This document shows, one piece after another, positions 35,201 through 59,684 of a stretch of 64,000 bases of DNA. The DNA comes from Branchiostoma floridae. Its lineage: Eukaryota > Chordata > Leptocardii > Amphioxiformes > Branchiostomatidae. The notes beneath the pieces were generated by a model. The model was given only the letters and a program-made list of their open reading frames with translations. It was not told the DNA's origin and did not search any database. The number at the start of each line of letters is the position of its first letter. Within the stretch, counting starts at the first letter, position 1. The translations under genes and the position numbers were made by a program. Location: contig NC_049983.1 in NCBI RefSeq assembly GCF_000003815.2, forward strand, positions 26,223,003-26,287,002, read 5' to 3'.

Positions 35201-38200
35201 CGCTTGTCGCAATGTCCGCCGCTATGCCCGTCGCTTTTGCGCCCACGAAAATGCGTGTCCGTTCTGTGCGCAAGCGTGCGAAGTCAGCACGGGGCGAGGT
35301 AACGCACGCGTTCGGAGTTTGCGTGAAGTTGCTCAAAACTCGTCAATCGGCACGAAACGTGTTATTCTTCAGGCGCCGCTATCTTTACACGCGTGCGGTT
35401 ACTCACGCAGTACTAAGTCCGCACGCGTGCAAAGATAGCGGCGTCTGAGTAATAGCACATTTCGTGTGGAATGTCGTGTATTGAGGAATTTCACGTCGTG
35501 TTATTCCTCGTTTCGGGTACCCCAAACATAGCTCGAACAGGATGTAAGGCTGGAATCATTGCCGAATTCTGGTTGGGGACTAGAAGTAAAGCTAGAGTGA
35601 TTGTCAAAGTGAAGAACGTCTGACTGTATCACCTAAGTCAGCGTCCAAGTCTGTAGTAAACGACCCGTAAGCTAGTCATGCCCTCGCTGCCGCGTAGGCG
35701 TCGCGTTCAGCTTTGTCGGCGTAGGGGCAATCTTGAGGTGTGTGTTGCAGAGGAACATCGGGTCGAAACTTGTGGCAGTACTTGCACACGTGCTTCGCGT
35801 TGGTGCCAGACGGGCCAAGGTGGTCAGATGCATATGTGCACGTCCCCTGCTGGTAACCGGCACAGGGTGCCCCAGTGTTGTTCGCTTTGCCCTTTACCTT
35901 GACTGTGGGCGAGACGTCGTCGTCGTCCGTCGGTCGGCGCAGGTAGTCACGCTTAAGATCTCTCACCAGTGCTACTGTATGTGGGGAGTCGAGGTCCAGC
36001 AATGCGTGTTCTGCACGACGTAACATGGTGCGGTAGAAGTTTGGGATGCCCTTGAATGTGTAATGTGGAATGTCCAGCATTATGCCCTGCAGAATCTGGG
36101 CTCTGTTGTGGCTCTCACAGGGATCAGTGTCTTTACTGAGGATAATGGCCAGTTCGCCAGCCATGAACTGGTCCCATGTCAATTGGTCGTGTTCCAGCTT
36201 GGAGGACGCCGAAAATACATATTCATGGGGCCAACTGACCTCACGTTTCACTTTATCGTGAGATTTGCGAGACAACCCGCTGCGAAGCCGTCGCTTACCT
36301 CGGTAAGTCTTGTCATCGTCGTCCGACGGTGAAGAGTAGTCCCGCTGCCGCCTGGGTCTCCTGTTGTTATCGCCGTCGAGGTCCCAGCCGAACGTGTCGC
36401 CGGGCGGTGGCTGCCTCGGCTGAGCCCGGACTCGCTCGGCTGACGTGAAAGGATCCTGGAGATAGTTCATGGAACGTATGTCTCGCAGGGACGGGTAGCC
36501 GCGGTTGTGCTCGTACTCGTCTGTATGCGCTGGACGCCTAGCGGGATTCTTCCGAGGAGCCCCCCTCCCATCGTGACCGAATTCTCGCGAGAAGGTGCGT
36601 GGGTCTGCGTCTCGCGAGAAGGCGCGTGGGACTGACGTCATCCGCACGCGGGAGTTGCGAGGAACGTCGTCCTGACGTATGTCCCCGGTTTGGGGAGGGG
36701 GGCTGCGCTGAGTTTTCTTGGGTTTCGTTTGTTGGTCGTGCTCCCGGAGGCGTGCCTCGTTTAACTGGATCCTCTCAATACTCCTCGATACCTCAGCTAG
36801 TTGGTGGTCGATCTCGTCCTCCAGCTCGTCCATCGGCGTAGAGAGAGAACTGACGACCGGTGAAGGACAATCCCGAAGTGAAGCGTGGTCTGGCCATTCG
36901 TATCGGTCATCGAGCTGGTAGTCGCCGAAGCGCACGGGAGGCCTTGTCTTCCTCTTACCGGCGCCTAGCATCGTGAAGGTTGGACTTAGGGGCTTAACGT
37001 ACTGGGAACCGTGTGTATGAGGTTGCACCCGCCGATAAAACGAAAGAAAACCCGGAAAATGCCGGCAGTGACTAGGATGTCTGACTTGACGGTGGCTCTC
37101 CTCAGCCGAGTCTGCTGTGATTGGCCAAGGAGAGTCATGTGACCGTGCGTGGTGAAATTCCCCGCTACCTCGCCAGATGGCGCGGTACCCCCATGACTAA
37201 CGCTAAAATACGTTTTGTTTCAAAGAATAATGTTCAGAGATATACCGACTAAAAGATAAAAAAATAGAATCTATTAACCAATTTCAAACCTCTTCTTCCA
37301 GGAATTGCATCACCAACTTCAGCTGGTAAGTTTTTAAGTGTTTATTGCAACCAACTAACTGATAGAGTGTTATGGCGTGAAGACATAGGGGGACCAACAG
37401 TTGCTTTAACTTATTTCAAAGTCAAGTTCATTATTTGGTAGTTCCGCATCACAAAAGGGTCGGACATGTCTTTCACTGTTATCAGGTGATTATACTAGTG
37501 AAGACGAGGAGAGAAAAAAAAAATTACTGTATAAAAGGTAACCAGAGTGTTATGGCGTGAAGACATAGGGGGACCAGCATGGAAACGCAAGCGTGTTATA
37601 GAAGTTGCTTTAACTCAGTTCAAAGTCAAGTTCATAATTTGGTAGTTCCGCATTACGAAAAGTTGGACTTTCACTGTTATCAGGTGTTCATATTAGTGAA
37701 GACGAGGAGAGAAAAAAGGTAACCAAAGGGGACTGAGTTGGGATTTATCAAGCATGCCAACCGTCTGGTTCGTTATTACTCTGTGACTGGAGGGTAACCT
37801 CCGTCGACAGAGTATTGTAATCGGTCTATGTCTTGAGTGTTCGCACAAAATTGGACTCACCCAGACTTCCTGCAACCTATGATCCACTGTTCACGTGTTC
37901 TATCTGCATAACGTGACGTCACGGCAGCTTGGATTGTTCATACCATGACAAAGACTGGTGCTGTTAAGTTGAAAATTTGGGTGAGTCCAATTTTTGTATC
38001 AGAATTTAAAGTTCAACTAGTTCAAGAAGACAGCGTGTGTTAATACTGTCTATTTGAATTAGTTCAACCAAGAGATTGTCTGGAGGGAAATGGAATATCA
38101 TACCGAGGACCAGTCTCTGCGACCAGATCAGGCCGGACGTGTCAACGCTGGGACTTTCAGTTACCTCATATTCACGACAAGACACCTGCTAATTACCCGT

Positions 38201-41200
38201 TATCCGGACTGGAGGCGAACTCCTGCCGGAATCCTGACGGAATAGACGTAGTTTGGTGCTACACCACGGATCTCTTTTATAGATGGGAGCCTTGTGACAT
38301 ACCAGACTGTGGTAAGGTCTGATTATGTAACCTCACTTCTCAGTTATGATCCCCTCTCATCTGTATTGATTACTACATTTTCCCTCTATATTTCAATGTT
38401 TTAAATGTCTTATAGTATGATCGGTGTATTGTGCGATGTATTTGACCAGGAGTTAATCCTATTCGGGGGGGTTGAGGCCCGCGCCAACGTTCATGTCTAA
38501 GGGTGGGTACCGATACGGGTTACGGTCTGAATAGGGTTAAAGGCATATCTACAATGCTTCAATTGAGTTTCATTTCACAACAATCGAAAGTTCATTTATA
38601 ACTAGTAACTTGGATTGTTTGTACAGACGAATGTGCATCCTCCACGGATAACTGCCACAGTCAGGCAACCTGTACCAACACATTCGGCGGGTTTACCTGT
38701 AACTGTAACAACGGTTACCATGGGAACGGAGTCACCTGTACTGGTAAGAACATTTGGTTGTACATCGGTTGAATATCAGGATTGTGGAGCGCTAATATTT
38801 CTAGTGATTAATTCAGAGCTCAAAGTCTCATAGGTTTAGTTATACTGTATCACCAGTAACTTATGGATTGATTGTATCCACAGACATCAACGAATGTGCA
38901 GATGGCACAGACAACTGCCACGCTCAGGCAACTTGCTCCAACACGGACGGATCGTTCACCTGTGCCTGTAATAGCGGGCACTTTGGGAACGGAGTCACCT
39001 GTACTGGTAAGAACAATTTGTTTTAGAAGTCCAAGTGGAAGGGAAGTGGATGGAGGTTGGGAAACACTAAATGATGGGTTGGTGGGTGGTTTGCGCTTGG
39101 GAAACACTGCATGATGGGAAGGCGCGACTCATTATCAACATCTGATAGAAAGTCAGCTGAAAAATCGATGTTATTTAAGTTTGTCATTTTCACCTTTGCT
39201 AAGTATGCGGCCACTGCCAGGGCGGGGACATCAACTGTGACCGGATGTCGGGTGTCTGCTCAGCTGGGTGTCAGGATGGATGGAAAACACGGCTTTGTAA
39301 AGAAGGTAGTTCATGATTTAATCATGATTGTCTCTTTGCTCCTAATCACATAATGTTCCTCACCAATATCTAGATCCGTTTTCACAAAAGAGAGATATAT
39401 CTCATCCATTCGATTTGCCATTCTTCTCATATTTTAAGGTCGTCCGTAAATACGTTTTTCCAAAGCTGCCTTGTCAACTTAATTCTCAACAATCAAAATC
39501 AAAACATTATTATGATTGTTAAAGGCATGTGTTGGTATCTGGAGGAGGTGACCAAAAATGGAAGATGATAACTTTTATTCTAATCGTCTCTCCTACATTC
39601 TGTCCTACTAATGCAGCTTTTGATCCTCCAATGAACCTGACCGTCTCTGACGTCACGGATGAAGGGTTCAAGGTCACATGGCTTCCATCCCCTGACCCAG
39701 ACCTTCAGGGATACCGTGTCGTGGTGTCAAAGTTAGATATGACGACAGCTGTCAATCAGAGCACAGTTCAGACATGGCTTCAGGTGGCGGGACTGACACT
39801 GGAAACTGATTACATCATCAGCGTGAGGGTGTTGGTCCTGTCCGAAGGGCTCTGGTCACAAAGCAATGTGACAACAACCGAAGCAACCACGAGTAAGGAG
39901 TGACTAGTTACTGATTACCACTGACCTTATCAGTCAGATGGATATTCCTTCATAGCTTTGCCTTGGCATTTTCTGGTGATGTAGTTTCTAGTCATGGCTG
40001 CAATTGGCAACAGCTATCGATCGTTTCTTACCTTTTGAGGAATGTTTTAGAAACAAATGGTCTATTGAAACTTTTTAATTGAAATTTTGAAGCGTACTCC
40101 TACCTATCCCCACCCGGGTTTTTATCTGTATTGCCTGCAGCACCACACATGTAAACAACAGACAGAATAATTTATTAGTGGGTTCGGTAGTGTTTAGCCT
40201 GATTAAATCTCGCTTATAGCAGCCCGCCAAACATCCGCCGGCCCACTATCAGCTTGATAGAGAATAGCCCTTAGTCAAGGGAACTGGGTTTTCCATATAT
40301 GGATAATGTATGTAATTGCCGGGAGCCCACCAGAGCCTGGCTTTTGGTTGCTATGGACTGGGGTGGGTTGCTATGTGGTGATTGACAGCATCACACCTCT
40401 TATCTGTAGTTGATCTCTCTGATCTGTGCCACTTGTACTGATGGTGGGAACAGAGTTCTACTATTATAAAATGATGTCTTTTTTTAACAACCGCTACACC
40501 GAAGAACTAATGTGAGAATTACCCTTCAATACATAGAATAGCATTCATTTAGGTAGATGTGCCTGTGGCATAACTTTTGATGTGCCAATCATTATAGGAG
40601 GGACATATCATGGTTCTGAGAAGTTTGACCAAGGAGGTTGACAGGCTTCAACTGTCACAACAACATGGCGCATTTTTGTGAACCAACTGTTTTTCTACAG
40701 TTCTCTGCCTATATAGATTTTAAAAAATGTACTTTATGCCAAGCTTTCGTTGCTGGCCACATAAAATCTCACCACCAGGCAAAATAATAGTTCCAGGAAA
40801 GTCTGCGCTCCAAGATTCCTTCAAGTTTCTTGAAATCCCCACAACTGGCACAAGACGTTGTTTTCCAATTAAACACAAACATGCCTCTGCTCCCATGGGT
40901 CCTTCACACAGAGAACCACAGCCCGGCACAGACAATGGGAGAGGCAACTAGCCCGCCCACCGTCTGGGTGGTGGAGACATGCTAATATACTGGTTTCCAC
41001 GGTAATGGGGGCTTGACCAAAATCCTGGCTTGCCATTGGTGTTGGTATTTTCTACAACAGTTCCCCCAGGTTATAGCTAGTGGAGCACAAACTCCGCGGG
41101 GAGGGGCCAGTTAGAGCCCTGGACAGCAGAGTTTGTGTTACACAGACTAGGTAGTGTTCCCTATCCTCGAGTCATGTTGAAAGGTGGAGATATCCCGGCT

Positions 41201-44200
41201 TAATGTTCTAGCTGCATTTCCTCAACGGCAAAACTGTGGATTTGCCTCGCCATTTGAAGTGTACAATCAGCATTAAAAAGTGTAAAGCTTGTGTCTTTCG
41301 AGCCTCGATGTCACAAATTTTGATCGTTCTTTTCTTCAGTAATGAGCTCCTCTACAGACCTGGAGTTCGTTGACGTAACCGAGACGACGTCCATGCTGAG
41401 GTTCACCTGGGTTCCCCCTGATGCGGTCGTGACCGGATACCGCGTCATGTACGGACTGGAGGAGGCGACAGAACAGCTCAGCCCCTCCCCGGGTCCGGGA
41501 GATGTGTCTGCCTTGATGGTGGGGCTCCAGCCAGACACCATGTACAAGGTGGAAATCTTCACTATTGGACGTAGGCGAGAAAGTCTACCGCTAGTTGGGC
41601 ATAATGTAACAGGTGAGAACACAAAACCTTTATTCATAGGCTCAGACTCAAGCGAGTTCAAATAGTTCTATTCAAACTATGGCCGTACCATGAATTACTG
41701 ACCGGGTATGATATAAAGATATAGATCAATTCCTAAAATATTCAGATAATCTAGCTTATATAAAAACTTGTGTGTAAAGTTCGATGCATGTGTTTCAAAC
41801 CAGAACCTTTGCCTCCACTCCTCAGAGCCCGACGAATGTGCGACAGTGAACGGTTGGTGTGACCAGATCTGTACCAACGTCCCAGGCAGCTACAGATGTT
41901 TCTGCCGTCAAGGCTTCGTACTGATGCCAGACGCCCACGGCTGTGGAGGTGGGAAATTGTTTAATTGCAATCCAGACATTTCATGTTAAGAAACCAAGCA
42001 TGCCCCAGGTTTGTGGATGTGGATGTACCTTTTGGAAAGGAAGGAAACGATCGGATTCCAAGCCACTAGGTTGCTATTCTTCGACAACGCAGTGTCTACT
42101 TAACACATGAGTAGTAGGGAACCAGGCCAGCATCGTTCACCAGATTCGACAGAATAGTGATTCCTCCATGTGTTATTCAGTAAGCGGCCTGTAGGCCAAC
42201 TTGAGCTCCTCATGAATCAACGAATGTTCAAACAAACAAACAAACAGTCTTGGTACATGAAAAATACAAAGCACTGATTGATGATGCCAAAATATACGCA
42301 CCTGAAATCGGAGGGTGTCAAAAATTTGATACTGTTTAATCGTGTCATTTCCCCTTTGATCGCTTAGTTTGCGGGCACTGCGAGGGCGGAGACATCAACT
42401 GTGACCGGATGTCGGGTGTCTGCTCGGCTGGGTGTCAGGTTGGATGGAAAACACAGCGCTGCAACGAAGGTTTACTGTTCATCATTATTTATGAAGCAAA
42501 TTCAATGTACTGATTCGTATAGAAAGAAAAACAAAATACCGACACGATATGAACTGTTATCTAATATTGATATACGAATATTTTAATCCTGTCACTTAAA
42601 AGTAGGCAGTGAATTAGTTTCTTGACCACTCATATTCATTCTCTGATCAATGGAAATCAGATGTACTGGAGGAATACAACTACACTGTAGTAACTGATAT
42701 TGAATGACAAGTACCGTCTATATTAATTTTCCATCTACGGATTTCTTTTCACAGCTGTGGAGCCGCCAATCAACCTGGCCGTTTCTGACGTCACGGATAA
42801 AGGGTTCAAGGTCACGTGGTCTCCATTATCTGACCCTGACCTTCATGGATACCGTGTTGTGGTGTCGAAATTAGACATGACGACAGCTGTCAATCAAGAT
42901 ACGGATCAGTCATCATTTCTGGTGTCAGATCTGTCGCCGGATTCAGATTACATCATCAGTGTGACCTCGCTGTTCCTGACGGATGGTTGGAGGTCACAGA
43001 GCGAGACGTCGGTGACACACACATCCACAGGTAGGAAGGACGTAGTTAAAAACCTACAGCAAATCGCAGGAACTGTAATAGCGAAGGACAGCCAATGGTT
43101 TGGTTATAATAATTTTAGACATGGAAAGGACGGAATATAGATATTGCTGTGAAAAATTGTATGTAAATTTCAATATGATGAACGGCAAAATGTACTCTGC
43201 ATGCGCAGAAATACCATACTACGGAAGCTCAGATAGAATTGGATGCAATCCAAATACTGTAAATACATTTAAGTTCGCGGGGATTTAATTTCGCGGTAGC
43301 GGGAAAAAGGACTGTTCGTGGTGGTTTTAAGTTCGCGGTAGCATCATGCACTGTAGTCTGTTAATGCCATGGACAAATGTTCGCGGTGGTTTTAAGTTCG
43401 CGGTGAAGTGGCCACCGCGAAAACCGCAAACATTAAACCACCGCGAACATTTCTGCATTTACAGTACTTTGTAAACTTTATTATCCTGGAATTATGATGA
43501 TGATTTGATTGCACATTTTCAGAGATGAGCTCTTCTACTGACCTGCACTTCGTGGATGTGACCGAGTCAGAGCTGCGGTTCACATGGGTTCCTCCCGATG
43601 CGGTCGTGACCGGATACCGCATCATGTACGGACTGGAGGAGGCCACAGAACACCTCATCTCCTCCCCAGAAAATACGTCTGCTGTCATCCGTGGACTTCA
43701 GGCAGACTCCATGTACAAGGTGGAGATCATCACCATCGGAGTTCAGCGGGAGAGTGCGCCACTAGTGGGATTTAACACGACTGGTGAGCACCATAATGCT
43801 AGTGTTGATATGGGGTATGTTACGTAAACGATTGTCTAGGTAGAGTCTGTTGGCTTCCACTCCCTTCACGATGCACAAAAACTGTTACATGCAGTACTCT
43901 CTACATTCGTGTTTATTACCCCTGTAAGCCGCCACAGTGGTATCAACTACACCGCCTGCTGCTTCCACCAGCCAGACAACTGATTCAGCTGTTTCGACCG
44001 GCCGATCAAGTCGGATGGCCACGTTTTTCGTCAGCCTACTGACTAGGACTACACCGGCACATGTACCTGACACTACATCGGGCCAGGGACCGCTGAATTT
44101 CGGTACGTTACCGCCACAAGGAACGTTGTGCCATGCATGAAGCTGAATACATCGTATCAGGCAAATCATTTACAACTTTGTTGTTGTTACTTGACACAAG

Positions 44201-47200: not shown

Positions 47201-50200
47201 TCCCGACATCCCACAGGAGAACGCTTTTAAGGTGAGGATAAAAGTCGCAACTGTACCAAGTTTAATAAACTCAGTCTTCCGGATCTTACTTTAGCTGCAT
47301 CTTTTTATATTTGTTTTGTTCTACTGTTTATCTCCTATGCTGGATAATATCTTGCCAAATATACTTTTGGTATTTTTGAGGCAAGAGTTATACTTTTGAA
47401 TAATTCTTATGAATTCCAACAGAACACAGCACTAGACGTTCTGCAGTCCATCAACAGCAAACTGAGCAAACTGGACATGTCTGATCCGTTAACTGTCGAG
47501 TCTGTGGGAGGATGTAAGTATTAGCTAGATCAGGTCTACAGTGTGGGTTATTCTGTGGTATATCTGGTAGCCCGTTCGTATTAACGTTAGTGTCAGAAGA
47601 TTCAAACGTCTTTAAAAGTTTGACTTTGTCTCACAAAGTGTTCTTGATGCAATTCTTACAGCATTATTGAATAAAGCAGCTACAAACATATGCATAGAAT
47701 ATGTCAAAATTTCAACATTTTCTATCCGATCAATGAAAACAGCAAAGACAGAAAAGATCAAAGACATTCTATGTTGAAAATTTTGACGAAATCTTTAAAA
47801 AATCATATACAATAAAACTAAATATTAAAGGCAAGTTGTAATCATTGAATAATTCTTTAGAATTAGAATGTTAATTCTAATGTTCTGTTGTATCAATGCT
47901 CTGGTAGACTCCGTTGTAGTCGTGTAATGCGTATGGCTTGTACACGTGTATAAGCGGTACCTGTTTCTTTGGCAGCTCTGGTAGAGTCCGTCGCTACCCT
48001 TCTTCATGAACCCGAGGGAGATGCAGAAGAGCATGACGGAAATCTCCAGTCCGACCCAGTAGAGGACGATCATGTCTCCCCAGAGGAGCGCGCTAAAAAG
48101 GCGAAACAAGAAAAAGAAAAACAGCGAGAGGAGGTGAAAATTACCCTTCAGTGGAGACTCAAGCTCGGCTTTAGTTTTACCTCCTCAACCCTAACCTCCT
48201 CTACACTTTGTGTTGATTGTATTGAGTTTTTGTCGACTTTATATGCCTACCTACCCGATGCGCTTACCATTGATTTTTTTTCTTTCTGGATCGAATCATC
48301 TATGCTAAATACCACTCGTTATACTGTGAATTTCAGTTTACCAGCTCATCATCCTTTGGACAGTGGCTTGACTCTATTGCGTATGTTTCATTCACTTCCC
48401 GTAAGAATGGGTTGGTAAATCAGTACTGATATAGTATTTCCTTTCCATTTCTTTTTATTATATGTCCACTACTGGTGTCTGCAATACCATGCTTTCTTTC
48501 ACTGTTAGAAGGAAATGATTGTCCAGAAAAGCCACCAGGTCCTGGATGACCTGCTCAACGCCGTTACCGACCCCATGAGACTTGGAGCCCCGCCGGTAAC
48601 TATCAAGAGAAGTGGGGTTACTCTGAAAGCACAGAAGATCCGGGGCTCCATGATTGGGGACCAGGTGGTGCAGACGGAGGATGGGGGAGGAGTCCAGTTC
48701 CCATCACAAACTGCACTTTTCCCGGAACATCCACCTCACAACATCACTGTAAAAGTGAGGATCCTTCCTTCATTCTTTTTGTCCTTCATTCCTCCCTCTC
48801 TCCATCCGCCTCCATCCTTACCGTAGTCCCCTCTTCCTTCATTCCACCTTCCCTCTCTCCCATTTTCGACTCAGTTCAGATAATTAGAATTGAATAGCAT
48901 TTGAATTAGATTTTCCAGGGAAACATGTAAAGTACTGTCATATTGTGAAGGCTATAGTGTAACATTCCTTCTCTTTGGGTTCCATCGAAATCTAAAATGA
49001 TTTTTCTTATTACGGTACTCGTAAAAATACATGCTCAAATCGTCGTGTCACACCCCTACAAGTCAGGGTAAAGTCTCAGTTAAACCCCAGACAAGCAAGC
49101 TGACTGCCATTCACATGTAAAATCAGCTCAGTCTTTACTGCAAGATTGACTTTATTCTCAATAAACCTGAATCATTCAATCATTGTCATGATGTTTTTCT
49201 TTAGCTGACACAGTACCAACAGAACCCATACACCTGGGGGCGTGGGCAATATCAGGCGCGCTCATCTGTTATGGAGCTTTCGTTACACCGAAAAAACTAC
49301 AAACCTTTGGTCTTCAACAACCTCACTGAAGACTTCATAATCACCATTCCGGGCAGGTCCAGAAACACACCAGCGACAAAAACCATCACCTACCCTCTCC
49401 CAGGAAACGGAACATCAAGTTACCATCTACTGAACCTGAACAACACCGCAGAAGGATTCCTGGTCACAATCACCCCGCTGAACTCAAGTGTGGTGTACGG
49501 CGTGTGGGGCAGGTACGGCGGCCGCCCTGATGACCAGAACTACGACGTGTCCATGGAGACGTACGTTCTTTCCGAGGAGTGTTCCCTGATGGAAACTCTG
49601 GGTGGGGATGGAGGCGACAAGACGGAGGCAAGGATGTTCATCAAAGGAGTTGAAGATCCAGTGGACTATTACGTAAAAGTTCAAATTTTAGGTAAGCATT
49701 TCCGTTTTATATTCACAATAAAGACGAGTACCTTTGATGAGTGCGTCAGACGTAGCAGTACGTATGCCAATGCTCTGTGGGGGCATATTTACGTTTTCCT
49801 TATCGACCCTAAACACCAAGTTCTGTGGTGGCACATGCTAGGATATATTTTCTTCATCGACGCTGAATATCGAGAAGATAAGACAGTGGTTATAAAAAAA
49901 ATTATATTTGTAAGTTTAACCTGCAGACACTAATGTTATTGAATGTGCACTAAGTAGGTTTTGTCTTCTCATCAGGACCGACGACCGAGTGCGGCAATAA
50001 TGATCGAAACGACGAAACGAAAGCACACACCAATGACTTCTACGCCTACCAGATTCAATGGGTCCGTCTAAGCTGTGTCTACTGGAGCGAGACCCAGGAA
50101 GCCTGGAGGCCGGACGGATGCACGGTGAGTACAGAAGTTAAATTATTCGATTGCCAAAAGTGGCAGAGGTATGTTGACTTTTTTCTGACGTCTTATCACA

Positions 50201-53200
50201 TATAATTAGGATTGCACGTACGTTATTCTCCGATTAATGACCCAGGTAACATTTTAGAACATGCGAATTAGAATTTCAACATCCTTATTGACAAGACTGT
50301 TACATTTCTATTTACCCTTCAGATTAGCAATCGGTCCACGGTTAACAACATCATCTGCCACTGCAACCATCTGACGGCGTTTGGAAGTGATTTCGCCACA
50401 CCGCCGGACACGGTCGACTTCGGAGTCTTAACGCTTAGTGATCTACGTGACAACGGCGCGGTGTTGACAACCATCTTCGTGGTGGACTGCCTCTTTCTGC
50501 TCACGTTGGTCGTAATGAAGGTTACTGACCTTAGATTGAAGAGGAAGGTACGTTCTTGGTATTATCGAAAATTACATTAACAACAACTGCGTTGTTGTTT
50601 ATTAACTCTTAACATATTTGTCGAAATGTTCCATTCCTTCATAGAAAAGCCCTTCCATCAAACTGGATGACCTGCAGAACGATTTCCGGTACCTCCTCCA
50701 CATTTGGACTGGCACCGCAAAGCATGCCGGGACGGAGTCCACCATTGCCTTCAACTTGGGTGGAGATGAAGCGACTTCCGGAGTGAGAGTGGTCAGCATC
50801 ACGGAGAAGGTCAGGCATTAGCGTTCATTTTATTCCTCAAGAATGTTTTCACTCAGATAGGTAGGTCCTAACAGATCGAATGCTTGTTTCTGTGTAGGTT
50901 TTCAACCAAGGCAGCCAGGTGACGCTGAACTTCAGCACAGCAGAACAGCTGGGTAACGTGGAGCTGCTGCAGCTCATGCACGACAACAGTGGGGAGGGGA
51001 GCCGTGCATCGTGGAACGTGGACAGAGCAACAGTGCAGGATCTCACCACCAAGAAAATGTGGGTTCAGTTTGCTTTGGCTGATTCATCTGAAGTAATGAC
51101 AGTAATGTGTTAGAAAAAAAAGATCTGATAATGTTTAACAAGCTGACCCAAATTCAATTTGTTAAACTTGGTTAAACTGGAAGGTATTCTATTGATCTCA
51201 CTTGAACTTGAAGCTAACAAAGTGACTTTGTTGTACCAATTTTGCAACTGTTACAATACATTGTAGGTTCTATTTCTTCTGCGGTGAGTGGCTGGCAGCC
51301 GACCGCGGAGACGGGCAGGTGGTGAAGACCTTTCCTGTCGCCTCTGAGCAGGACCTGCGATCCTTCGGCTTCCTGTTTCCCGCAAGTCTGCGGAGTAATC
51401 TGGCAGAGGACCACCTCTTTTTGTCCGTCGCTATCATGTCTGAAGGTAAACGTTCGTAAGATTTCATTGGTCTATCTACTGTATAAGGTATTGTCGTGAA
51501 ATAGATATACACTTTCAAAAAGGGTTTTTTTTACAGGTTGGGATTAGATGTCTTTGCGAATGATTGACAGTATGAATTGTTGTCTAATGACAAAGAATAT
51601 TGTATAACAAGATCTTGTGTAATTTTACTCAAGAAAAACATTCTCCCACGGATGGGATATTTATCAAGATAGTCACCTTTTTTGTTTTGGCAAATAGCCC
51701 GTTTTATCAAGGTCTATCTCAAATTCCACTTTTATTAATGACATCATGTTATCATTCCATTACAGGAAGCAAGTTCACGCGCATCGAGAGGCTTGGCTGC
51801 TGCCTGAGTTTCCTCACCTTGTCCATGGTGGCCAGTGCCATGTGGTTGAGCGATGAAAACGCAACCCAAGTTGTGCAGGCCGTCAGCCTGGGGCCGTTCT
51901 CCTTCACCTTGAACACAGTTTACACGGGAATCATGACAAGCATCACCTGCCTTCCCGTCGTCATGGCCATCGTTGTGCTGTTTCAGTACAGCCGACCGAA
52001 CAGCAAGGGCGGTCGTCCGGTCAGGGACGTGGAGACAGCCGGACCAGCTGAGGCACCCAAGCAGCAAGAACCAACCAAGGGCCTGCCACACTGGTGCAAG
52101 TACGTGGCCTGGGCGCTGGTGGTGCTGTCTGCCTTGGGGTCATCTGTCTTCACCGTGCTGTACAGTCTGAAGTGGGGCAGAGACAAGTCCGAGAGGTGGC
52201 TGTCTACGTACTTCATCACCTTCTTGGTGGATATCTTCCTTCTGCAACCAGTGAAGGTGACTAAATCATTCTCATTTCTGGTTAGGAACATATTGGCGTT
52301 AGAATTTGCGTTACGTAAGGTTTCTATCAGTTTTGCATGTTATTAGAGAATCAATCAATGAATGTCATCATTGGCGATAGAAAAAATAAGGGACTTAGTA
52401 TAATCAAATATCCAATAGATCAGGCGATTTATATGCTTTGCACAACACTTCTGCATAACCTCTTCAGAAGGTCGTGCTATGCTACGTAGTGTGTTGTCTC
52501 TTTTTTTAAAAATAATTTCCCGTGTTACCAAAGTGTTAAAGATCAAACACTTTATGTTACAGATATTGGTTCTTGCGATTGTATTTTCATCCATTTTTCA
52601 AAGACATGTCTTGAAGATGATTTTTGAAGACGAGGGGGACACTGTTTTCTTGCAAGACGCGAACGTTGCTTCTCCAACACGGGCTGGGTTTAATAGTGAG
52701 TGATACAAAATCATGTTGTGAAATCATAACATTCATCGCGGCGTTATGACTGGCTCCATTTTGAATTAAAGAACAGCTTACAATCACTGGTGTTCCACTG
52801 TCAGTGTATGTTCCTCAGTGGGTGGGTTTCAGTTCCCCCTAAGGTTTAATGATTTGATTGATTGTTAAATTTTCATAAAAGGTGGCCAATTCCGGGTGAG
52901 GAAGAAAATGGAACGACTTTCTCATGTATCCCTTGCAAACGTCGAGGAAGCGCGACAGAAGCTGAACAGAGACAGAAGAATCAGTAATGTCCTCTGGGAC
53001 ATCTTCCTGTCATGTGCTCGCCTCCTGCTTGCCTTGACTATCATCAACGCGCACTACAACACCAACACGGCCTTCTATCAGACACAGAGCGCAGCAGAAA
53101 ACTTCGTGCAATCTATAGAAGAGGTAAACAGGTCATTGTCGTATTCAAAACGTTTCGTTTGGAAAATATTAAGTTTGTCATCAGCGTCATAAAACAACTA

Positions 53201-56200
53201 CGTACTAGTACGATGACATAGACACATGCGATGACACGTGCTATTTTATCAAAATCTACCCGAGCTTTTGACATGAAATGGAAATAGCACTAAGCATTTT
53301 ACAGCTGCATCATTTGTGTATCAAGCATTATGATTTTAAAAATATGCTTATATCCAATATCTTATCATTTGAAAGGTAACAGACCCCACTGGCCTTTGGT
53401 CATGGCTGGACGAGACCGCTCTGGAGAGCTTCTACCCGGAGACCTCCTACAATGACGACAAGCCCCGCTGGTGGGAGAAGGTCTTCACAGCCGACATGCA
53501 GTCGGTCCTGGTCTCCCCACCCATCCTGATCCAAGTACGAGTAAAGTCAGGTTGGTGAAACCATTGAGACTATAAAGTAAGCATCACTGTCGTGAAATGT
53601 GTTGATTCTGTATCAGTGCTTCCAACTTTTATGACTGCCAGAAACTAAAGTACGTTTGCAGCTTACTTCTCTCACTTTCCATCTCCCGTCATCCTAGGGC
53701 TGTCCAATGTGTCTGCGTCTGAATAGTCATGAAATGCGTTGATCATGTATCAATATTTCCAACTTTTGTGACAAGTAACGGACTGTCGCTTACTTTTCTC
53801 TCTTTCCCTCTCTTGTCATTCTAGGGCTGTGCAATGTGCCTGCGAAAATGCAGTACTTGTTCGATGAATGTACAGCAGCGTATGATGAAAACACAAAGGA
53901 GACCGGAGTGTTTCAGAAGGGGTGGAAAAGAGTCACGAACATGTCGGATGAAGAATCAGAAGCCCCTGGATGGAGCCATCGCCTCAGTGGTTACACTATT
54001 AAGCCCGTTTTTGGTATAAAATCGCACTACTGGGGAGACGGCTTCAGTCTGAGCCTAGGAGAATCAGCAGACGAGATGCGCAGCATCCTAGCAGACCTTA
54101 AAGCCAACCGCTGGATCGACAGGCAGACCAGGGCCGTCATTTTCGAAGTGTTACTCTACAACGGAAACCTGGATATGTTCACATCGGTGACGATGGTGTT
54201 CGAATTCAGTGAGATGTCCGGAGTTTTCTCCCATCGTCACCTGCACACCTTCCGGCTTCATCAACAGCCAGGTACAATCGGGTACATCTACGTCCTGTTG
54301 GAAATCATTTACATCATCATTCTCCTCTACTCACTCTGGAAAGAGACAAAAGCTGTACGCGCAGCCGGCTGGGCCTACCTGAAGAAGCCATGGAACCTCG
54401 TGGAAACTTTTAACTTCATCCTGGCCTTCATTGTCATTGCCTTGTATGCGTCCAATAGGGCTTACAGTTCCAAAGCCATAGCGTCTGCTAAACAAGGGAA
54501 AGGTGGGTTATCTATATTCCACTCATGCAATATCGGACTAATGTCTGTGTAATACTTGGTGATACATTGTAAGGTACAGTTCTTACAATTTACTATGATA
54601 TGTTGTTTTCGTTAAGATCAACTACAATATCTCAAATCGCTGGTAGACATCAGTCTGTTGTATGGATGGTTCCTGTCTTTCCTTGCCTTCTTCAACATCA
54701 TGAAGCTCCTGCGACTGTTGAAGTTCAACCCTTACCTCGCCAAGGTGATATCCGTGTTCCGGGGAATGGCGATGGAGTTCTCGGGCTTTATACTTTACTT
54801 CTTTCTCTGCTTATCTGGATTTGGCATCAGCGGTCATCTCATGTTCGGTACCACCGTAACAGCGTACAGGTTTGTAATTTGTAATGATTATACACGACAA
54901 TAGCTACTGTGCTCCTGATATAACGTCCTTGGTTGGACCGAAGCAGTGAATGAAAACGTAGCCAGTATATACGTATCTACCTGGAAGGAGATCAGGATAA
55001 AACATAATGACAAAGAAACAAATTATCTTTTCAGGGCCATGAGCTTGTCCTACTCGACATTGTTCCAGATGTCCCTTGGACTCTTTGACTACACAGAGCT
55101 TTTTGAGGCGAAACCCATCCTCGGCCCCATCTTCTTTGTAGCATTCATGTGTCTAATCTTCCTGGTGCTGATGAACATCGCCGTGGCGATCATCGACAGT
55201 GCTCTTCCCGATGTGCGGAACCACGTCATGTCAGAAGAGGACCGGTACTTCATCCAAGGGTTATGGGAACGCTTTACGTCCCTGCTTGGGCTTCAGGAGG
55301 CACCAGTCACAGGTAATGGTGTCTATGTAATGTCGTTCGACAGGTGGCCAAAGTAGTTGGGCGGTCTTTTTATAGTTTTGTTTGTTGTATTTGACAAATT
55401 TGTACACCGTTACAGATGTCACCACCATGGATAGGCTCCACGACAGCCTTATTGAGGTTGAGATCCAAGTTGAGAGGCTGTGGATAGAGAGACTGTCGCT
55501 TTTTGGCTGCAGGCGAGTAAGGTTTTTTTACGTAGTGCATGGACTGAATTTTTCCTGTTACAGCATACTTAGTTTTCTTTGAACTGCGGTGTTGTGGTGC
55601 AATATTCTTTCCACGACGTGGCTGGTGGCATACGTAGTCTTAGAACGAATGTAGTTTTGTACGTTGCGCAGAACTGTTAAACCACATTTAGGTGTAACAC
55701 TCCAATTTTTTACGGAGTGCACAAGCTGCGAAGGACCAAACTGTAAAGTTTTGAATCACACCGAGAGGGAGTTCTACTTTTTTCAACAAGTATGGCGGGA
55801 TTCTTAACGTGCCCAAATGACTCTATTCATACACGTCCGGCTTGCGCAACGCCCACCCCAACTCCATGAGTCCCTTACACTCGTTCTCATTGAAATGTCG
55901 AAAATGGCATTTTTTGGGTCGAAAAATAGATCGGCCTTATTTTCAGTGAAAACTACCTGATTGTTTAGGAAAATTCCTCTTTTAACCATTGCCAGAAAAT
56001 GGCAACTTATTATTTTCGGTCCCATTGGTAATACACTACAGGACAGGTAACAAACGTTACCAGTAACGCTAGTTACAACAGTAGACTTTACCCTGTTTTC
56101 TCCGAAAGGACTCACCTTATTGAATACATCATTTAGGTATAAATGGATGTCCCTAGGGACATTTGAAAAGTGGGCAGCTTTTCTACACCAGGTAAAATAG

Positions 56201-57017
56201 AAAGCTTAGACAGCATCGAACAATGGTAACGTTTGTTACAGTTATTTCTGTACAACATTTTGTTAAGCAAGGTGGGATACAAATGACAGTCAACAACCCT
56301 TTCTTGTTTCTTTAGAAAGCCAGAAAAACTGTAAAGCGTCACAAAAATTGTCATTTCTAGTCTTAAACGTGGATAATGTAACCGTGGCAACCATCGTACT
56401 CGTGGTGGTAACGTTTGTTACAGAATCTGGCGACGGGTATAAATCACCTCACACAGCCTCCAAGATCAGTTACAGGAGCGATCTGACGTGATCAGACAGA
56501 GGATCTGGGTAGCTGGTTTCACCTGCCGGACAATCATTCTGTGAACTGAATTGTTACATTTTTGGCTACTATTTGAATTCTTCGTTTCTTCTCAGGCGAC
56601 AGCCATTTTTTAGGGTCTGAAATCCCACCCGTGGCTATAATAATCTTCTTAGCTATAAACCAATACGAATATTGTGGTGCATCTAATGTAAAACATTACA
56701 GGGGTTGTGGAAAAATGAAGGAACCAGTGATGTTGTCTATAATTTGCTGCATATTAAGTCGTAAAGTCAGGCGACAGCATTTTGACATTTAAATGAGAAC
56801 GAGCCCTTACTGAAACTAGCCACACGTTTTTACTGACCTTGGGAACCATTTTATTCTAAAGCAGCAACGATAACCTATTTCCACATGTTAACCTGGCCAC
56901 CACTCCATGTATACCTTAGATCCATTTGGATTCTTCTTGCTGGCTTTGTGTCTAATCTTGTAGGCACGTACAGATGACGGAGCCGACGTTTACCAGACTC
57001 GACAGCTTAACTATTAA
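22887..57017 (+). CDS. polycystin-1-like receptor-channel with kringle/EGF/FN3 ectodomain
   Basis: Thirty-six phase-compatible exons were read: 22887-22965, 37302-37325, 38063-38311, 38627-38743, 38884-39006, 39204-39305, 39617-39892, 41340-41612, 41826-41948, 42368-42469, 42755-43030, 43523-43783, 43929-44102, 44236-44289, 44446-44504, 44963-45043, 45471-45539, 47094-47231, 47423-47513, 47976-48133, 48509-48754, 49205-49691, 49976-50124, 50323-50547, 50645-50809, 50898-51058, 51267-51445, 51766-52256, 52563-52695, 52882-53123, 53376-53550, 53825-54502, 54617-54869, 55035-55312, 55416-55516, 56964-57017. They sum to 6846 nt (2281 residues plus stop). Domain order: signal peptide, kringle, EGF-like, FN3, Ser/Thr linker, GAIN/GPS, TM1, PLAT, ten more TMs with the polycystin domain, cytosolic helix. 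By family knowledge this is a membrane mechano- or chemosensory polycystin-1-type protein. Weakest calls are the small linker exons (44-48 kb) and the last exon. Confidence 0.8.
22966..26071 (+). other. start of the 14.3-kb first intron of polycystin-like gene A
   Basis: No exon recognised. A block containing AAAACCTCTRAATATTT with ATGAG occurs at about 24568 and 24996, and again in the first intron of gene B (about 62893), so the introns are paralogous. The open frame at 25427-25906 on the minus strand has no recognisable domain. Confidence 0.45.
26072..26905 (-). mobile_element. 3' split-repeat end of a DIRS/Ngaro-like retroelement
   Basis: A perfect 94-bp direct repeat (26072-26165 and 26812-26905) flanks a 646-bp block. 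The first 120 bp of that block on the minus strand (26811-26692) is identical to 37194-37075. Read on the minus strand this gives B1-A2-B2, with A1 at 37194-37075 in front of the Gag-like frame. That is the split-direct-repeat layout of Ngaro/PAT tyrosine-recombinase retrotransposons. The 526 bp between matched A2 and B2 are unexplained. Confidence 0.6.
26896..27489 (-). pseudogene. remnant of retroelement ORF2 N terminus
   Basis: This minus-strand frame contains SAIELHELVYDSGTLNFQGL and IPGWRAALSQYQPRCDI. From memory this resembles the region just before the reverse transcriptase of DIRS-like pol proteins. It then runs into the B1 repeat, with the RT, RNase H and recombinase domains missing. 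Assignment rests on position between Gag-like ORF and B1-A2-B2 and on a remembered motif. Confidence 0.45.
27681..28480. repeat. tandem array, about eight units, period 105 bp distally
   Basis: Units share ATTACGTGCGCTTCTTCAAT and GCACGGAGCCAGGCCCGGCA. Proximal units are degenerate (88-110 bp); the last four are spaced exactly 105 bp (28086, 28191, 28296, 28401). They alternate TACGTACGC and TACGTGCGC variants, giving a 210-bp higher-order period. The array lies next to the left inverted repeat, as subterminal arrays often do. Because 105 is divisible by three, an open frame of 183 codons runs through it; this is likely not a gene. Confidence 0.85.
29489..29876. mobile_element. 388-bp MITE with perfect 16-bp terminal inverted repeats
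   Basis: The ends CAGGGTTCTCCCCAGA and TCTGGGGAGAACCCTG are perfect inverted repeats, flanked by CAATA on both sides as a possible short target duplication. The interior has no coding capacity, and the subterminal TATAGTGGAGGG is repeated near both ends in direct orientation. Confidence 0.8.
29877..32180. other. intronic A+T-rich sequence
   Basis: Nothing coding is recognised. A 31-bp unit (GTAATATTTCTGATACATGT core) is duplicated in tandem at about 31670-31730. Confidence 0.4.
32181..32280. repeat. (TA)n and (TAGA)n microsatellite
   Basis: About 40 bp of TA followed by about 50 bp of TAGA repeats, directly adjoining the hairpin element at 32282. Confidence 0.95.
32282..32415. mobile_element. 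134-bp foldback hairpin element
   Basis: The arms 32282-32315 and 32382-32415 are inverted repeats (AATACAACACGGTGTATTCC against AATACAACACGATGTATTCC) with few mismatches. A G+C-rich inner part forms a second pairing (CCGACCGCGGGTCGG type). It has no coding capacity and is probably a small foldback element. Confidence 0.75.
32580..34430. other. intronic sequence with a duplicated block
   Basis: A block containing GTAGTTCGGAAAAATCCCCG is present at about 33098-33220 and again at 33337-33442. No supported exon. Confidence 0.45.
35349..35467. repeat. imperfect hairpin at the right end of the 7.9-kb element
   Basis: The arms 35349-35398 and 35419-35467 pair over about 50 bp with few mismatches (CGCCGCTATCTTT, ACGCGTGCGG), with a 20-nt loop. 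The same sequence as each arm is found once at the left end (about 27620-27665), so the right end carries an extra inverted copy. Confidence 0.75.
35676..37028 (-). CDS. Gag-like ORF1 of a DIRS/Ngaro-type retrotransposon
   Basis: An intact 450-codon frame. The N-terminal half is low-complexity and charged (Pro, Arg, Asp rich). The central part (SWPHEYVFSASSKLEHDQLTW... with QFMAGELAIIL) is a conserved-looking folded segment. A C-terminal Cys/His knuckle follows: CAGYQQGTCTYASDH, KHVCKYC, then H and C. This composition matches Gag proteins of DIRS-order elements. It starts 166 bp after the A1 terminus (37194). It lies on the strand opposite the host gene, in its first intron. Confidence 0.7.
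   Translation of the reverse strand: MQPHTHGSQYVKPLSPTFTMLGAGKRKTRPPVRFGDYQLDDRYEWPDHASLRDCPSPVVSSLSTPMDELEDEIDHQLAEVSRSIERIQLNEARLREHDQQTKPKKTQRSPPPQTGDIRQDDVPRNSRVRMTSVPRAFSRDADPRTFSREFGHDGRGAPRKNPARRPAHTDEYEHNRGYPSLRDIRSMNYLQDPFTSAERVRAQPRQPPPGDTFGWDLDGDNNRRPRRQRDYSSPSDDDDKTYRGKRRLRSGLSRKSHDKVKREVSWPHEYVFSASSKLEHDQLTWDQFMAGELAIILSKDTDPCESHNRAQILQGIMLDIPHYTFKGIPNFYRTMLRRAEHALLDLDSPHTVALVRDLKRDYLRRPTDDDDVSPTVKVKGKANNTGAPCAGYQQGTCTYASDHLGPSGTNAKHVCKYCHKFRPDVPLQHTPQDCPYADKAERDAYAAARA
37075..37194 (-). repeat. A1 terminal repeat of the retroelement (120 bp)
   Basis: Identical over 120 bp to 26692-26811, including GATTGGCCAAGGAGAGTCAT and CGCGGTACCCCCAT at the outer edge. Here it is followed outward by host intron sequence; in the other copy it abuts the 94-bp repeat exactly at the same base. 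That marks it as a true element terminus. It holds a CCAAT box 5' of the Gag-like frame. Confidence 0.75.
37302..37325 (+). CDS. 24-nt microexon of polycystin-like gene A
   Basis: A tiny phase 1-1 exon sits between TCTTCTTCCAG and GTAAGTTTTT and encodes GIASPTSA. The same exon with the same splice sites occurs 0.3 kb before the window end (63669-63692, GISAPTAA), which supports both. Confidence 0.65.
37364..37725. repeat. 180-bp tandem duplication in an intron
   Basis: Two adjacent copies begin AGAGTGTTATGGCGTGAAGA at 37364 and 37544, just after the microexon. The second carries a small insertion and is otherwise similar. Non-coding. Confidence 0.85.
38063..38311 (+). CDS. kringle domain exon
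   Basis: An 83-codon phase 1-1 exon encodes a complete kringle (residues about 35-117). It begins RDCLEGNGISYRGPVSAT and continues with TCQRWDFQLPHIH, NYPLSGLEANSCRNPDG, VWCYTT and RWEPCDIPDC. All six cysteines of the triple-disulphide fold and the YRG, NPDG and WCYTTD signatures are present. Kringles bind proteins or lysine-rich ligands in blood-clotting and receptor proteins. I do not recall one in vertebrate polycystins. Confidence 0.92.
38627..39006 (+). CDS. two calcium-binding-type EGF exons
   Basis: Exons 38627-38743 and 38884-39006 each encode one EGF module, both phase 1-1. The first begins DECASSTDNC and the second DINECADGTDNC; both end in GNGVTCT. Six cysteines each, and DxNEC-type starts as in calcium-binding EGF domains. 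The intron between them is about 140 bp. Confidence 0.9.
39204..39892 (+). CDS. Cys-rich half-EGF exon and first FN3 exon
   Basis: Exon 39204-39305 encodes a 34-residue Cys-rich module (CGHCQGGDINCDRMSGVC, then SAGCQDGW). It resembles the laminin/MEGF-type EGF. Exon 39617-39892 encodes a full FN3 domain (PPMNLTVSDVTDEGFKVTW through YRVVVSKLD). Both are phase 1-1. The pair is repeated at 42368-43030. Confidence 0.85.
39893..41339 (+). other. 1.4-kb intron between FN3 exons
   Basis: No exon or recognised repeat. A G+C-richer stretch around 40930-41160 has short inverted pairs but matches no RNA class I could identify. Confidence 0.4.
41340..41948 (+). CDS. second FN3 exon and third EGF exon
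   Basis: 41340-41612 encodes an FN3 domain of a different subtype (STDLEFVDVTE, TWVPPDAVVTGYRVMYGLEE). 41826-41948 encodes a cbEGF with PDECATVNGWCDQICTNVPG and YRCFCRQGFVL. Acceptors are CTTTTCTTCAG and CTCCTCAG. Confidence 0.88.
42368..43783 (+). CDS. duplicated Cys-rich/FN3/FN3 exon block
   Basis: Exons 42368-42469 (Cys-rich), 42755-43030 (FN3) and 43523-43783 (FN3) are paralogues of 39204-39305, 39617-39892 and 41340-41612. Long stretches are nearly identical in nucleotide sequence, which suggests a recent internal duplication or gene conversion. All are phase 1-1. Confidence 0.88.
43255..43466. mobile_element. 212-bp MITE of the TACTGTAAAT type
   Basis: The termini TACTGTAAATACATTTAAGT and, inverted, TACTGTAAATGCAGAAATGT are followed by TTCGCGG motifs repeated in both orientations. 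The pattern is a widespread animal MITE type (established knowledge) with TA target preference. It lies in the intron between the third and fourth FN3 exons. Confidence 0.85.
43929..44504 (+). CDS. Ser/Thr-rich linker exons
   Basis: Exons 43929-44102, 44236-44289 and 44446-44504 encode about 96 residues rich in Thr, Ser and Pro (TPPAASTSQTTDSAVSTG; TSTLQSTTN; TSTTLPGELGTT). This is a likely O-glycosylated stalk between the FN3 array and the GAIN region. The last exon moves the phase from 1 to 0, where the symmetric block ends. Confidence 0.6.
44639..44819. mobile_element. 181-bp MITE with perfect 9-bp target-site duplication
   Basis: The inverted termini TACCCTGGGAGCCAGCCAGG and CCTGGCTGGCTCCCAGGGTA are perfect over 20 bp. 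The 9-bp direct repeat GATAAATAC flanks the element exactly (44630-44638 and 44820-44828). A 9-bp duplication points to the Mutator-like group. Perfect ends and duplication suggest recent insertion. Confidence 0.92.
44963..50124 (+). CDS. GAIN-region exons leading to the GPS
   Basis: Exons 44963-45043, 45471-45539, 47094-47231, 47423-47513, 47976-48133, 48509-48754, 49205-49691 and 49976-50124 form a continuous frame of about 473 residues. Helical segments (DVLQRLAQ, AIQRLGSETVRAQTSQ, VLDDLLNAVTD) come first. A beta-rich part follows (IRGSMIGDQVVQTEDGGG; DYYVKVQILG) and ends in SCVYWSETQEAWRPDGCT. That is the expected helix-then-beta order of a GAIN domain. Exon 47976-48133 ends in a charged AKKAKQEKEKQREE run with a weak donor (GTGAAA), so its 3' edge is tentative. 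Confidence 0.7.
45661..45775. repeat. 59-bp tandem duplication
   Basis: Two adjacent copies containing GAGCGAGCTGCCATTCGGCG and GGTGACCTCAATACGAC, in the intron after exon 45471-45539, just before a transposon. Confidence 0.85.
45861..46784. mobile_element. 924-bp non-autonomous DNA transposon, copy 1
   Basis: The termini are CTCGTTCTCACTGAAATGTC and, inverted, CTCGTTCTCATTTAAATGTC. A 30-bp perfect palindrome (46028-46057) is built from GTAACAAACGTTACC and its complement. Two further GGTAACGTTTGTTACAG motifs follow (about 46206 and 46387). The copy at 55880-56803 has exactly the same length. Short minus-strand frames are not conserved in frame between copies, so it probably lacks its own transposase. 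Confidence 0.85.
50323..50547 (+). CDS. GPS cleavage motif and first transmembrane segment
   Basis: The exon begins ISNRSTVNNIICHCNHLTAF. The CxCNHLT core is the canonical GPCR proteolysis site, with predicted self-cleavage between Leu1254 and Thr1255 of the model. Next comes a hydrophobic TM1 (VLTTIFVVDCLFLLTLVVM). All GPS cysteines and tryptophans are present across exons 49976-50124 and 50323-50547, so cleavage should be possible. Confidence 0.92.
50645..51445 (+). CDS. PLAT domain exons
   Basis: Three exons (50645-50809, 50898-51058, 51267-51445) encode the PLAT/LH2 domain, about residues 1313-1480. It opens FRYLLHIWTGTAKHAGTEST and carries the hallmark FYFFCGEWLA. In polycystin-1 proteins it is the cytosolic lipid/protein-binding domain right after TM1, the position seen here. 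Confidence 0.9.
51766..53550 (+). CDS. TM2-TM6 exons of polycystin-like gene A
   Basis: 51766-52256 encodes TM2-TM5 (LGCCLSFLTLSMVASAMWL; SITCLPVVMAIVVLFQY; WALVVLSALGSSVFTVLY; YFITFLVDIFLLQP), with a long charged loop between TM3 and TM4. 52563-52695 completes TM5. 52882-53123 has a basic stretch and TM6 (ILWD-type VLWDIFLSCARLLLALTII). 53376-53550 starts the extracellular polycystin domain (WSWLDETALESFYPE). Confidence 0.88.
53625..53835 (+). repeat. duplicated splice acceptor region
   Basis: The acceptor plus first exon bases (TCATTCTAGGGCTGTGCAAT at 53815) has an upstream near-copy (TCATCCTAGGGCTGTCCAAT, about 53690) within a 125-bp tandem repeat. The upstream copy would soon meet a stop (GAATAG), so it acts as a decoy if used. 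Confidence 0.7.
53825..54502 (+). CDS. polycystin (TOP) domain and TM7-TM8 exon
   Basis: A 678-nt exon encodes most of the extracellular tetragonal opening domain (WSHRLSGYTIKPVFG; LKANRWIDRQTRAVIFEVLL; NGNLDMFTSVTMVFEF). Two TMs follow (YIYVLLEIIYIIILLYSLW and FNFILAFIVIALYAS). The motif order matches the PKD channel domain shared by polycystin-1 and TRPP proteins. Confidence 0.92.
54617..55312 (+). CDS. TM9-TM11 and pore-region exons
   Basis: 54617-54869 encodes TM9 and the S4-S5-like linker (FNIMKLLRLLKFNPYLAKV), then TM10 (FSGFILYFFLCLSGFGIS). 55035-55312 encodes the pore-helix region TLFQMSLGLFDY and TM11 (FMCLIFLVLMNIAVAIID). The pore segment lacks an obvious acidic selectivity-filter residue in the usual place, as expected for a polycystin-1-type subunit needing a TRPP partner. 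Confidence 0.9.
55416..57017 (+). CDS. C-terminal exons of polycystin-like gene A
   Basis: 55416-55516 encodes an amphipathic helix (RLHDSLIEVEIQVERLWIER), a likely coiled coil for partner binding. The donor GCGA/GTAAGG joins 56964-57017 (ARTDDGADVYQTRQLNY, stop), with the acceptor CTAATCTTGTAG. An AATAAA lies at 57031-57036, only 14 bp after the stop, so the true 3' end may differ. The intron carries a 924-bp transposon. Confidence 0.55.
55880..56803. mobile_element. 924-bp non-autonomous DNA transposon, copy 2
   Basis: Same element as 45861-46784, inserted independently in the last intron: the outside flanks are unrelated. The flanking 8-mers CCCTTACA and CCCTTACT match at seven positions, consistent with an 8-bp target duplication of hAT type. 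The internal palindrome is degenerate in this copy. Confidence 0.85.
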
Positions 57018-57133
57018 ATTCTTTATCTCAAATAAACTGATAGATTTACTTTTATTTTTCAATTTAAAATGCTACTAAAACATGGCAGGTTAACTTTGTT
57101 GATAATCTTTACAAAGATGTTTACCTGTACAGG

Positions 57134-59441: not shown

Positions 59442-59684
59442 ATGGCGCTGACCAAAATGCTACCTTTCTTCGGGGAAAACGTGTCTGAGTTCCTAGTGAA
59501 CAAGATTCTCAAGAGCTGTGAAGCACAGGGATCCCGGAATGCCTCAGGAAAGCCGGCAGAGATTTACCGCCTGATACGAACGAACTCGATAAACTTGAGA
59601 ATGGGCGAGTGGAGAAATACGGAGCGTGAAACAGTTTGTAACATAATGAATCGACTTTGTTCTTATTTCAAGCCTTGGAACTGA
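59442..59684 (+). CDS. small basic protein of unknown function
   Basis: An 80-codon frame starts in CGACCATGG and ends in a TGA, with AATAAA 60 bp downstream (59744-59749). Together with the upstream CCAAT/octamer/GC elements this looks like a complete intronless gene. The product (MALTKMLPFFGENVSEFL start, YFKPWN end) is basic, with a central ASGKPAEIYRLIRTNS stretch. I do not recognise a domain. It is not a histone, and there is no stem-loop after the stop. Confidence 0.5.
   Translation: MALTKMLPFFGENVSEFLVNKILKSCEAQGSRNASGKPAEIYRLIRTNSINLRMGEWRNTERETVCNIMNRLCSYFKPWN

Follow-up and report, generated by a model that had tools for sequence, protein, structure and literature searches.

An apparently intact polycystin-1-family receptor-channel gene of Branchiostoma floridae with a predicted kringle/EGF/fibronectin outer part

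The DNA analyzed here (the window) is a 64,000-nucleotide stretch of the Branchiostoma floridae genome (NCBI RefSeq assembly GCF_000003815.2, contig NC_049983.1, positions 26,223,003 to 26,287,002 of the forward strand), and all positions below are counted from its first nucleotide. Its central feature is a polycystin gene on the plus strand, termed copy A, whose full model runs from 22887 to 57017 and joins 36 exons encoding 2,278 aa with no internal stop and no frameshift. From the kringle to the stop codon (38063-57017), the chain comprises 34 exons and 2,244 aa, with a single stop at its end. The exons of copy A were picked by eye for an open frame, which partly accounts for the agreement of their phases; the model is least certain at its last exon and in the exons of the linker. 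The features of copy A and of the two exons assigned to a second copy (copy B) are as follows.

22887-22965, plus strand: exon 1, signal peptide MAGRDRRATRSRLVSAGIACWLLIVT, ending in phase 1 (signal-peptide/donor scan; copy at 62087)
37302-37325, plus strand: exon 2, 24 nt, phase 1-1, pre-kringle linker (AG/GT sites; copy at 63669-63692)
38063-38311, plus strand: kringle (Pfam PF00051, E=1.1e-25; plasminogen/HGF kringles in the PDB)
38627-38743, plus strand: EGF 1 (Pfam EGF_3/EGF_CA)
38884-39006, plus strand: EGF 2, calcium-binding type with a DINEC start (Pfam EGF_3/EGF_CA)
39204-39305, plus strand: six-cysteine module 1 (six Cys; 28/33 residues shared with module 2)
39617-39892, plus strand: FN3-1 (Pfam fn3)
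41340-41612, plus strand: FN3-2 (Pfam fn3)
41826-41948, plus strand: EGF 3 (Pfam FXa_inhibition/EGF_CA)
42368-42469, plus strand: six-cysteine module 2 (six Cys)
42755-43030, plus strand: FN3-3 (Pfam fn3)
43523-43783, plus strand: FN3-4 (Pfam fn3)
43938-44504, plus strand: Ser/Thr-rich linker, phase 1 in and 0 out, uncertain exons 43938-44102, 44236-44289 and 44446-44504 (open chain)
44963-48754, plus strand: six pre-GPS exons, 44963-45043, 45471-45539, 47094-47231, 47423-47513, 47976-48133 and 48509-48754 (open chain)
49205-50124, plus strand: GAIN-like region, exons 49205-49691 and 49976-50124 (open chain; the Pfam GPS match starts in the second exon)
50323-50547, plus strand: GPS with intact HL/T cleavage tripeptide (CHCNHLTAFGSD), stalk and TM1 (Pfam GPS; stalk aligned with PKD1 6a70_B)
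50645-51445, plus strand: PLAT, exons 50645-50809, 50898-51058 and 51267-51445 (Pfam PLAT)
51766-52695, plus strand: TM2-TM5, exons 51766-52256 and 52563-52695 (hydropathy; first part aligned with PKD1 6a70_B)
52882-54502, plus strand: TM6, polycystin (TOP) domain and TM7-TM8, exons 52882-53123, 53376-53550 and 53825-54502 (Pfam Polycystin_dom; hydropathy)
54617-55312, plus strand: TM9-TM11 and pore, exons 54617-54869 and 55035-55312 (Pfam PKD_channel; pore aligned to PKD2L1 and PKD2)
55416-55516, plus strand: cytosolic tail exon (open chain)
56964-57017, plus strand: proposed last exon and stop, with AATAAA at 57031-57036 and an alternative at 57089-58081 (sequence)
62087-62165, plus strand: copy B exon 1, MAGRDHRATRSRLVSAGIACWLLIVI (likeness to copy A exon 1)
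63669-63692, plus strand: copy B exon 2, 24 nt (likeness to copy A exon 2); the remainder would fall past the window

Read directly from the sequence, the protein has a signal-peptide-like start, a kringle, EGF and FN3 domains, a Ser/Thr-rich linker, a GPS with HL/T, a PLAT domain, a TOP domain, channel homology and 11 hydrophobic segments. An earlier sequence-only reading of this DNA had placed a kringle/EGF/FN3 ectodomain ahead of a polycystin-1 core, which is borne out by Pfam matches above cut-off and by the stop-free 34-exon chain.

Several other elements lie around and within the gene. Two Death + NACHT + LRR (NLR-type) genes on the minus strand (1986-5970 and 13906-17634) are tandem duplicates, their DNA being about 85-88% alike across most of the NACHT-LRR part. 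The first intron of copy A contains a minisatellite (27845-28468, six copies of a 105-bp unit) and, on the minus strand, an open frame of 506 codons that matched no Pfam model (35679-37196). A stretch of 120 nt at 37075-37194 is identical to 26692-26811, which suggests copies of a mobile element, and a 0.93 kb repeat present in two introns of the gene (45859-46786 and 55878-56805, 92% identical, same orientation) is probably a mobile element as well. Between copies A and B, a small open frame starting MALTKMLPFFGENVSEFLVNKIL occupies 59442-59684.

The core of copy A was examined for the traits of the polycystin-1 family. A GPS precedes TM1 (42.7 bits, Pfam cut-off 22.5; CHCNHLTAFG), a PLAT domain follows it (43.3 bits, cut-off 23), a simple Kyte-Doolittle scan produced eleven peaks for the 11 transmembrane segments of the family, and both the TOP domain (Polycystin_dom, 112.4 bits) and the polycystin-2 channel homology (PKD_channel, 98.0 bits) scored above their cut-offs. 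The REJ module and PKD repeats, a further family trait, gave no Pfam match at E<=1; these modules, known from PKD1 and PKDREJ, do not occur in all polycystin-1 members and are not required of PKD1L3-like members. The GAIN model likewise had no Pfam match at E<=1 in the assembled chain, and a GAIN domain is proposed from its position before the GPS and from the GPS match itself. At the pore, LGDFDY of PKD2L1 corresponds to LGLFDY in copy A; with Leu in place of the acidic residue, this pore would suit a partner subunit more than a stand-alone channel. When the window was searched by tblastn with nine core pieces, no second polycystin core was found, the best match elsewhere (E=0.004, 20 residues, 53661-53720) lying within the same gene. 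This 20-residue piece sits just upstream of the TOP-domain exon, whose beginning it matches at 75% identity, and it appears to be a partial exon duplication within the intron. A viral contig collection yielded no relative of the channel part of copy A.

Downstream of the cytosolic tail, the end of the gene can be drawn in two ways. A small gene finder, described below, favored 57089-58081 as the last exon at five of its six settings. This segment is part of a plus-strand ORF directly behind the polycystin gene (57068-58081), which may supply an alternative last exon or be a gene derived from a transposon. The ORF has weak Ulp1-peptidase and PHD-finger matches; as both were below the Pfam cut-off, a Ulp1/PHD-like part of the protein was dropped from the model.

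The kringle aligns with all 79 profile positions of PF00051 (1-79 of 79; 90.2 bits, cut-off 34.3), has six cysteines, is free of stops and is followed by a good donor, and its closest solved relatives are the kringles of plasminogen and HGF (these two ranking best), apolipoprotein(a) and prothrombin. No further kringle was found in the window, where the next best match reached only E=1.1. The acids of the lysine pocket are the Asp pair at positions 55 and 57 of plasminogen K4, with aromatic and basic partners. The kringle of copy A lacks part of this set: in the alignment to K4 (NPDGIDVVWC here vs NPDADKGPWC), the first Asp is kept and the second is Ile, the other pocket positions being kept or conservatively replaced. 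Lysine binding therefore appears unlikely, and plasminogen kringle 3, likewise without the second Asp, is not known to bind lysine. Overall, the domain is a standard kringle with a degraded lysine pocket, for which protein binding is plausible. The suggestion that it represents a new ligand class is not supported, given its standard type, the missing lysine-pocket acid and the kringles reported on amphioxus adhesion GPCRs in the available part of a 2008 survey (PMC2246102).

Whether the kringle exon is always used was considered alongside the gene predictions. Its codon score is weak, and the gene finder recovered just its last 29 nt (2/6 settings) or none of it. This program was trained partly on copy A exons, with exons 11-18 left out and splice-site weights partly set from general knowledge, and therefore only its behavior over the bridge between FN3-4 and the GPS is informative. 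The six-cysteine exons as drawn were predicted at none of the six settings. Because recovery was partial or absent, the kringle and six-cysteine exons rest on Pfam matches or duplication. The weak codon score and poor recovery, together with the phase symmetry of the exon, would be compatible with a single gene in which the kringle is optional or fading, with transcripts skipping the phase 1-1 exon 38063-38311 and a kringle-free main product. However, an exon long out of use should have decayed, and this one is complete, stop-free and equipped with six cysteines and a good donor, which makes predominant skipping unlikely.

All ten ectodomain modules occupy one exon each, with phase 1 at both ends and AG/GT borders. 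In the assembled chain, Pfam identified EGF_3 in three stretches and fn3 in four (146 bits). The two remaining modules, called half-EGFs in the sequence-only reading, each hold six cysteines in 33 residues and matched no EGF model; scanned alone in frame, neither had a Pfam match above cut-off, and the sole row for each was a beta-defensin model at 14.7 and 16.0 bits, far under the cut-off of 30.7. That name was consequently abandoned. The ectodomain would have originated by phase 1-1 exon shuffling and internal duplication of a block of six-cysteine module, FN3 and FN3. As for the phase-consistent chain on which the earlier reading had relied, the chain is indeed open, but its weight as evidence is reduced: every module exon is 1-1, so that the loss or exchange of any one would leave the frame intact, and phase is therefore a poor guide to whether the two halves are one gene.

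The bridge between these halves is where two genes would have to meet. The first, for a kringle/EGF/FN3 protein that is either secreted or membrane-bound, would end near 44-46 kb, and the second, polycystin-1-like with a short ectodomain, would start before the GPS. The bridge was crossed within one gene at five of six penalty settings of the gene finder, one of which broke the channel half at 52.9 kb; only at the most lax setting, where new genes are almost free, was the locus split here, as in many other places, into ten pieces. Exon 44446-44504 was predicted at 5/6 settings and the linker exons at 43938 and 44236 at 0/6. The last four pre-GPS exons appeared at 6/6 settings, 45471-45539 at 4/6 and 44963-45043 with that start at 0/6, these latter two being the least certain of the six pre-GPS exons, which are probably the first part of the GAIN-like domain. 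From FN3-4 to the exon at 47094, the coding score exceeded that of every one of 200 dinucleotide shuffles, whichever of the two intron penalties was used. A path ending before the GPS scored 19.6 vs 19.3 for the joining path at one setting and 7.9 vs 9.5 at the other; the best joining paths partly differ from the drawn exons, and one of them used 43929-44102, 44236-44289 and 44446-44504.

Two genes would accord with the near-equal score of the terminal path at one setting, with the split at the most lax setting and with the portability of the ten module exons, all in phase 1-1. Conversely, a downstream gene would need a start of its own, and the sole signal-like start listed in 43784-49205 (45463-45539, phase 2) leads to a stop when spliced to the exon at 47094. 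The window contains no other polycystin core, and the leader exons lie upstream of the kringle with no other recognizable ectodomain exon between them. The possibility that the kringle/FN3 exons end in a separate gene before 44963, which the sequence-only reading had named as its own counter-case, is thus answered in part at the DNA level: the coding signal of the bridge and its crossing at 5/6 settings favor one gene, while the end before the GPS scores equally well at one setting. Taken together, we judge two genes to be quite improbable.

Selection on the ectodomain was assessed from its duplicated exon pairs, for which dN/dS was 0.23 (six-cysteine modules 1/2), 0.47 (FN3-1/3), 0.24 (FN3-2/4) and 0.37 (EGF-1/2). 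The pooled value over these four pairs was 0.34, indicating that the duplicated modules evolved as protein-coding sequence. That copy A is a pseudogene silenced not long ago within a tandem array, as the nearby duplications and the repeats in its introns might suggest, is highly improbable in view of 36 exons free of frameshifts and internal stops and of this dN/dS, part of which dates from before any decay.

The 5′ end of copy A differs from the gene start at 37302 given in the earlier reading, since a signal-peptide exon lies 14.3 kb upstream at 22887-22965 and both first exons are duplicated at 62087 and 63669. A signal-peptide scan of the upstream region gave eight rows, two of them in phase 1. 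The segment at 22887-22965, which has a good donor behind its phase-1 end, was chosen as the start only once its copy at 62087 had been seen, and it is accepted as exon 1 because of that copy. Exon 1 of copies A and B is identical at 25 of 27 residues; in DNA, the match extends into the upstream flank (82% identity over 318 nt, E about 1e-86). Exon 2 is 74% alike over 112 columns (E 8e-13). The leader pair is thus present twice in equal order and orientation, for which tandem duplication would be the simplest account, with the first intron of copy A swollen to 14.3 kb by repeats. Copy A accordingly appears to head a tandem series of two or more copies, the next of which probably begins inside the window at 62087; the first intron of this next copy contains a run of 100 N (63422-63521). 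Between 17600 and 38100, the splice thresholds left 19 open phase 1-1 segments, the kringle alone being recognizable among them, and no extra ectodomain exons upstream of the kringle could be recognized by eye. A more speculative extension, which we regard as doubtful, is a tandem array whose members would share a leader (promoter, signal exon and 24-nt exon) and the channel core and differ in their shuffled phase 1-1 cassettes, the kringle being one of these, to yield diversified ligand-gated calcium-channel receptors, e.g., for microbial, gamete or matrix recognition.

Considering the locus as a whole, we find it likely that it holds one apparently intact polycystin-1-family receptor-channel gene, built by exon shuffling, gated as outlined below and followed by a tandem neighbor. 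Because copy A keeps the GPS, stalk, TOP domain and channel homology, our best guess is a mechanism of the human type, each step past the sequence being modeled on human PKD1. The protein would cut itself at the GPS, after which the kringle/EGF/FN3 fragment would remain attached. Force, or binding to a partner in the matrix or on a cell surface, would pull this fragment off and expose the stalk (TAFGSDF...). The stalk would then act, via the TOP domain, on a channel assembled with polycystin-2-type subunits. The outcome would be altered Ca2+ entry and perhaps G-protein signaling. For human PC1/PC2, the available part of PMC12513491 describes raised Ca2+ permeability upon N-terminal ligand binding and GPS cleavage/stalk exposure. 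Of the four human PKD1 paralogues, PKD1L1 and PKDREJ are reported as uncleaved at the GPS and without the HL^T/S tripeptide (PMC9672506, available part).

Copy A may serve as an example of a known sensor-channel given a new sensing head through domain shuffling. Current thinking views polycystin-1 as a sensing head with a stalk-gated channel, the question being which parts of its ectodomain matter. With the same core and a smaller, wholly different head, copy A would amount to a head swap made by nature: should cleavage and gating persist in it, the head would be an interchangeable trigger, and should the tandem neighbor have other modules, the locus would exemplify a receptor-channel family that has diversified.

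Compared to known systems, copy A shares with human PKD1 (6a70_B) the GPS/stalk motif TAFGxxxxxPPxxVxF, PLAT, 11 TM segments, TOP domain and channel homology, and the two proteins align from the GPS through PLAT. In contrast, the LRR, WSC, C-type lectin, PKD repeat and REJ modules of PKD1 have no Pfam match at E<=1 in the assembled chain of copy A, ectodomain included, and the kringle/EGF/fibronectin outer part appears to replace the modules of vertebrate polycystin-1. The channel aligns best with polycystin-2 and PKD2L1, then with PKD1L3 (90.9 bits) and only weakly with PKD1 (133 bits for PKD2 vs 33 bits for a second PKD1 stretch over the channel half). Vertebrate members of the PKD1L2/PKD1L3 type have lectin-type ectodomains, unlike copy A. 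They resemble it in the HL/T at the GPS, as in the cleaved paralogues (PMC9672506, available part), and a PKD1L2 gene beside another gene is mentioned for amphioxus in the available text of PMC10199209, which gives no ectodomain for it. PMEL, GPNMB and TMEM130 combine a PKD-type and a “kringle-like” six-Cys domain in one protein; they differ in having a single TM segment and a kringle-like domain unannotated by InterPro Scan, and the accessible part of their description does not mention GPS, PLAT or a channel. In the open-access text available, no description of a kringle combined with a polycystin as in copy A was found, although protein databases may well list it. The kringle on an adhesion-type receptor is itself not new in amphioxus, because the accessible part of the 2008 Branchiostoma floridae survey describes an expansion of ten adhesion GPCR genes, with kringle and somatomedin B domains in sequences from this set (PMC2246102). 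In this receptor family many amphioxus members bear a GPS, and the authors suggested domain shuffling; the kringle is also among the adhesion-GPCR domains listed in the part of PMC12716839 available. These amphioxus receptors have an N-terminal kringle as copy A does, but on a 7TM core, whereas the polycystin core of copy A has 11 TM segments, PLAT and channel homology. With a kringle on an adhesion-type receptor already known in amphioxus from that survey, copy A is surprising in detail and expected in kind.
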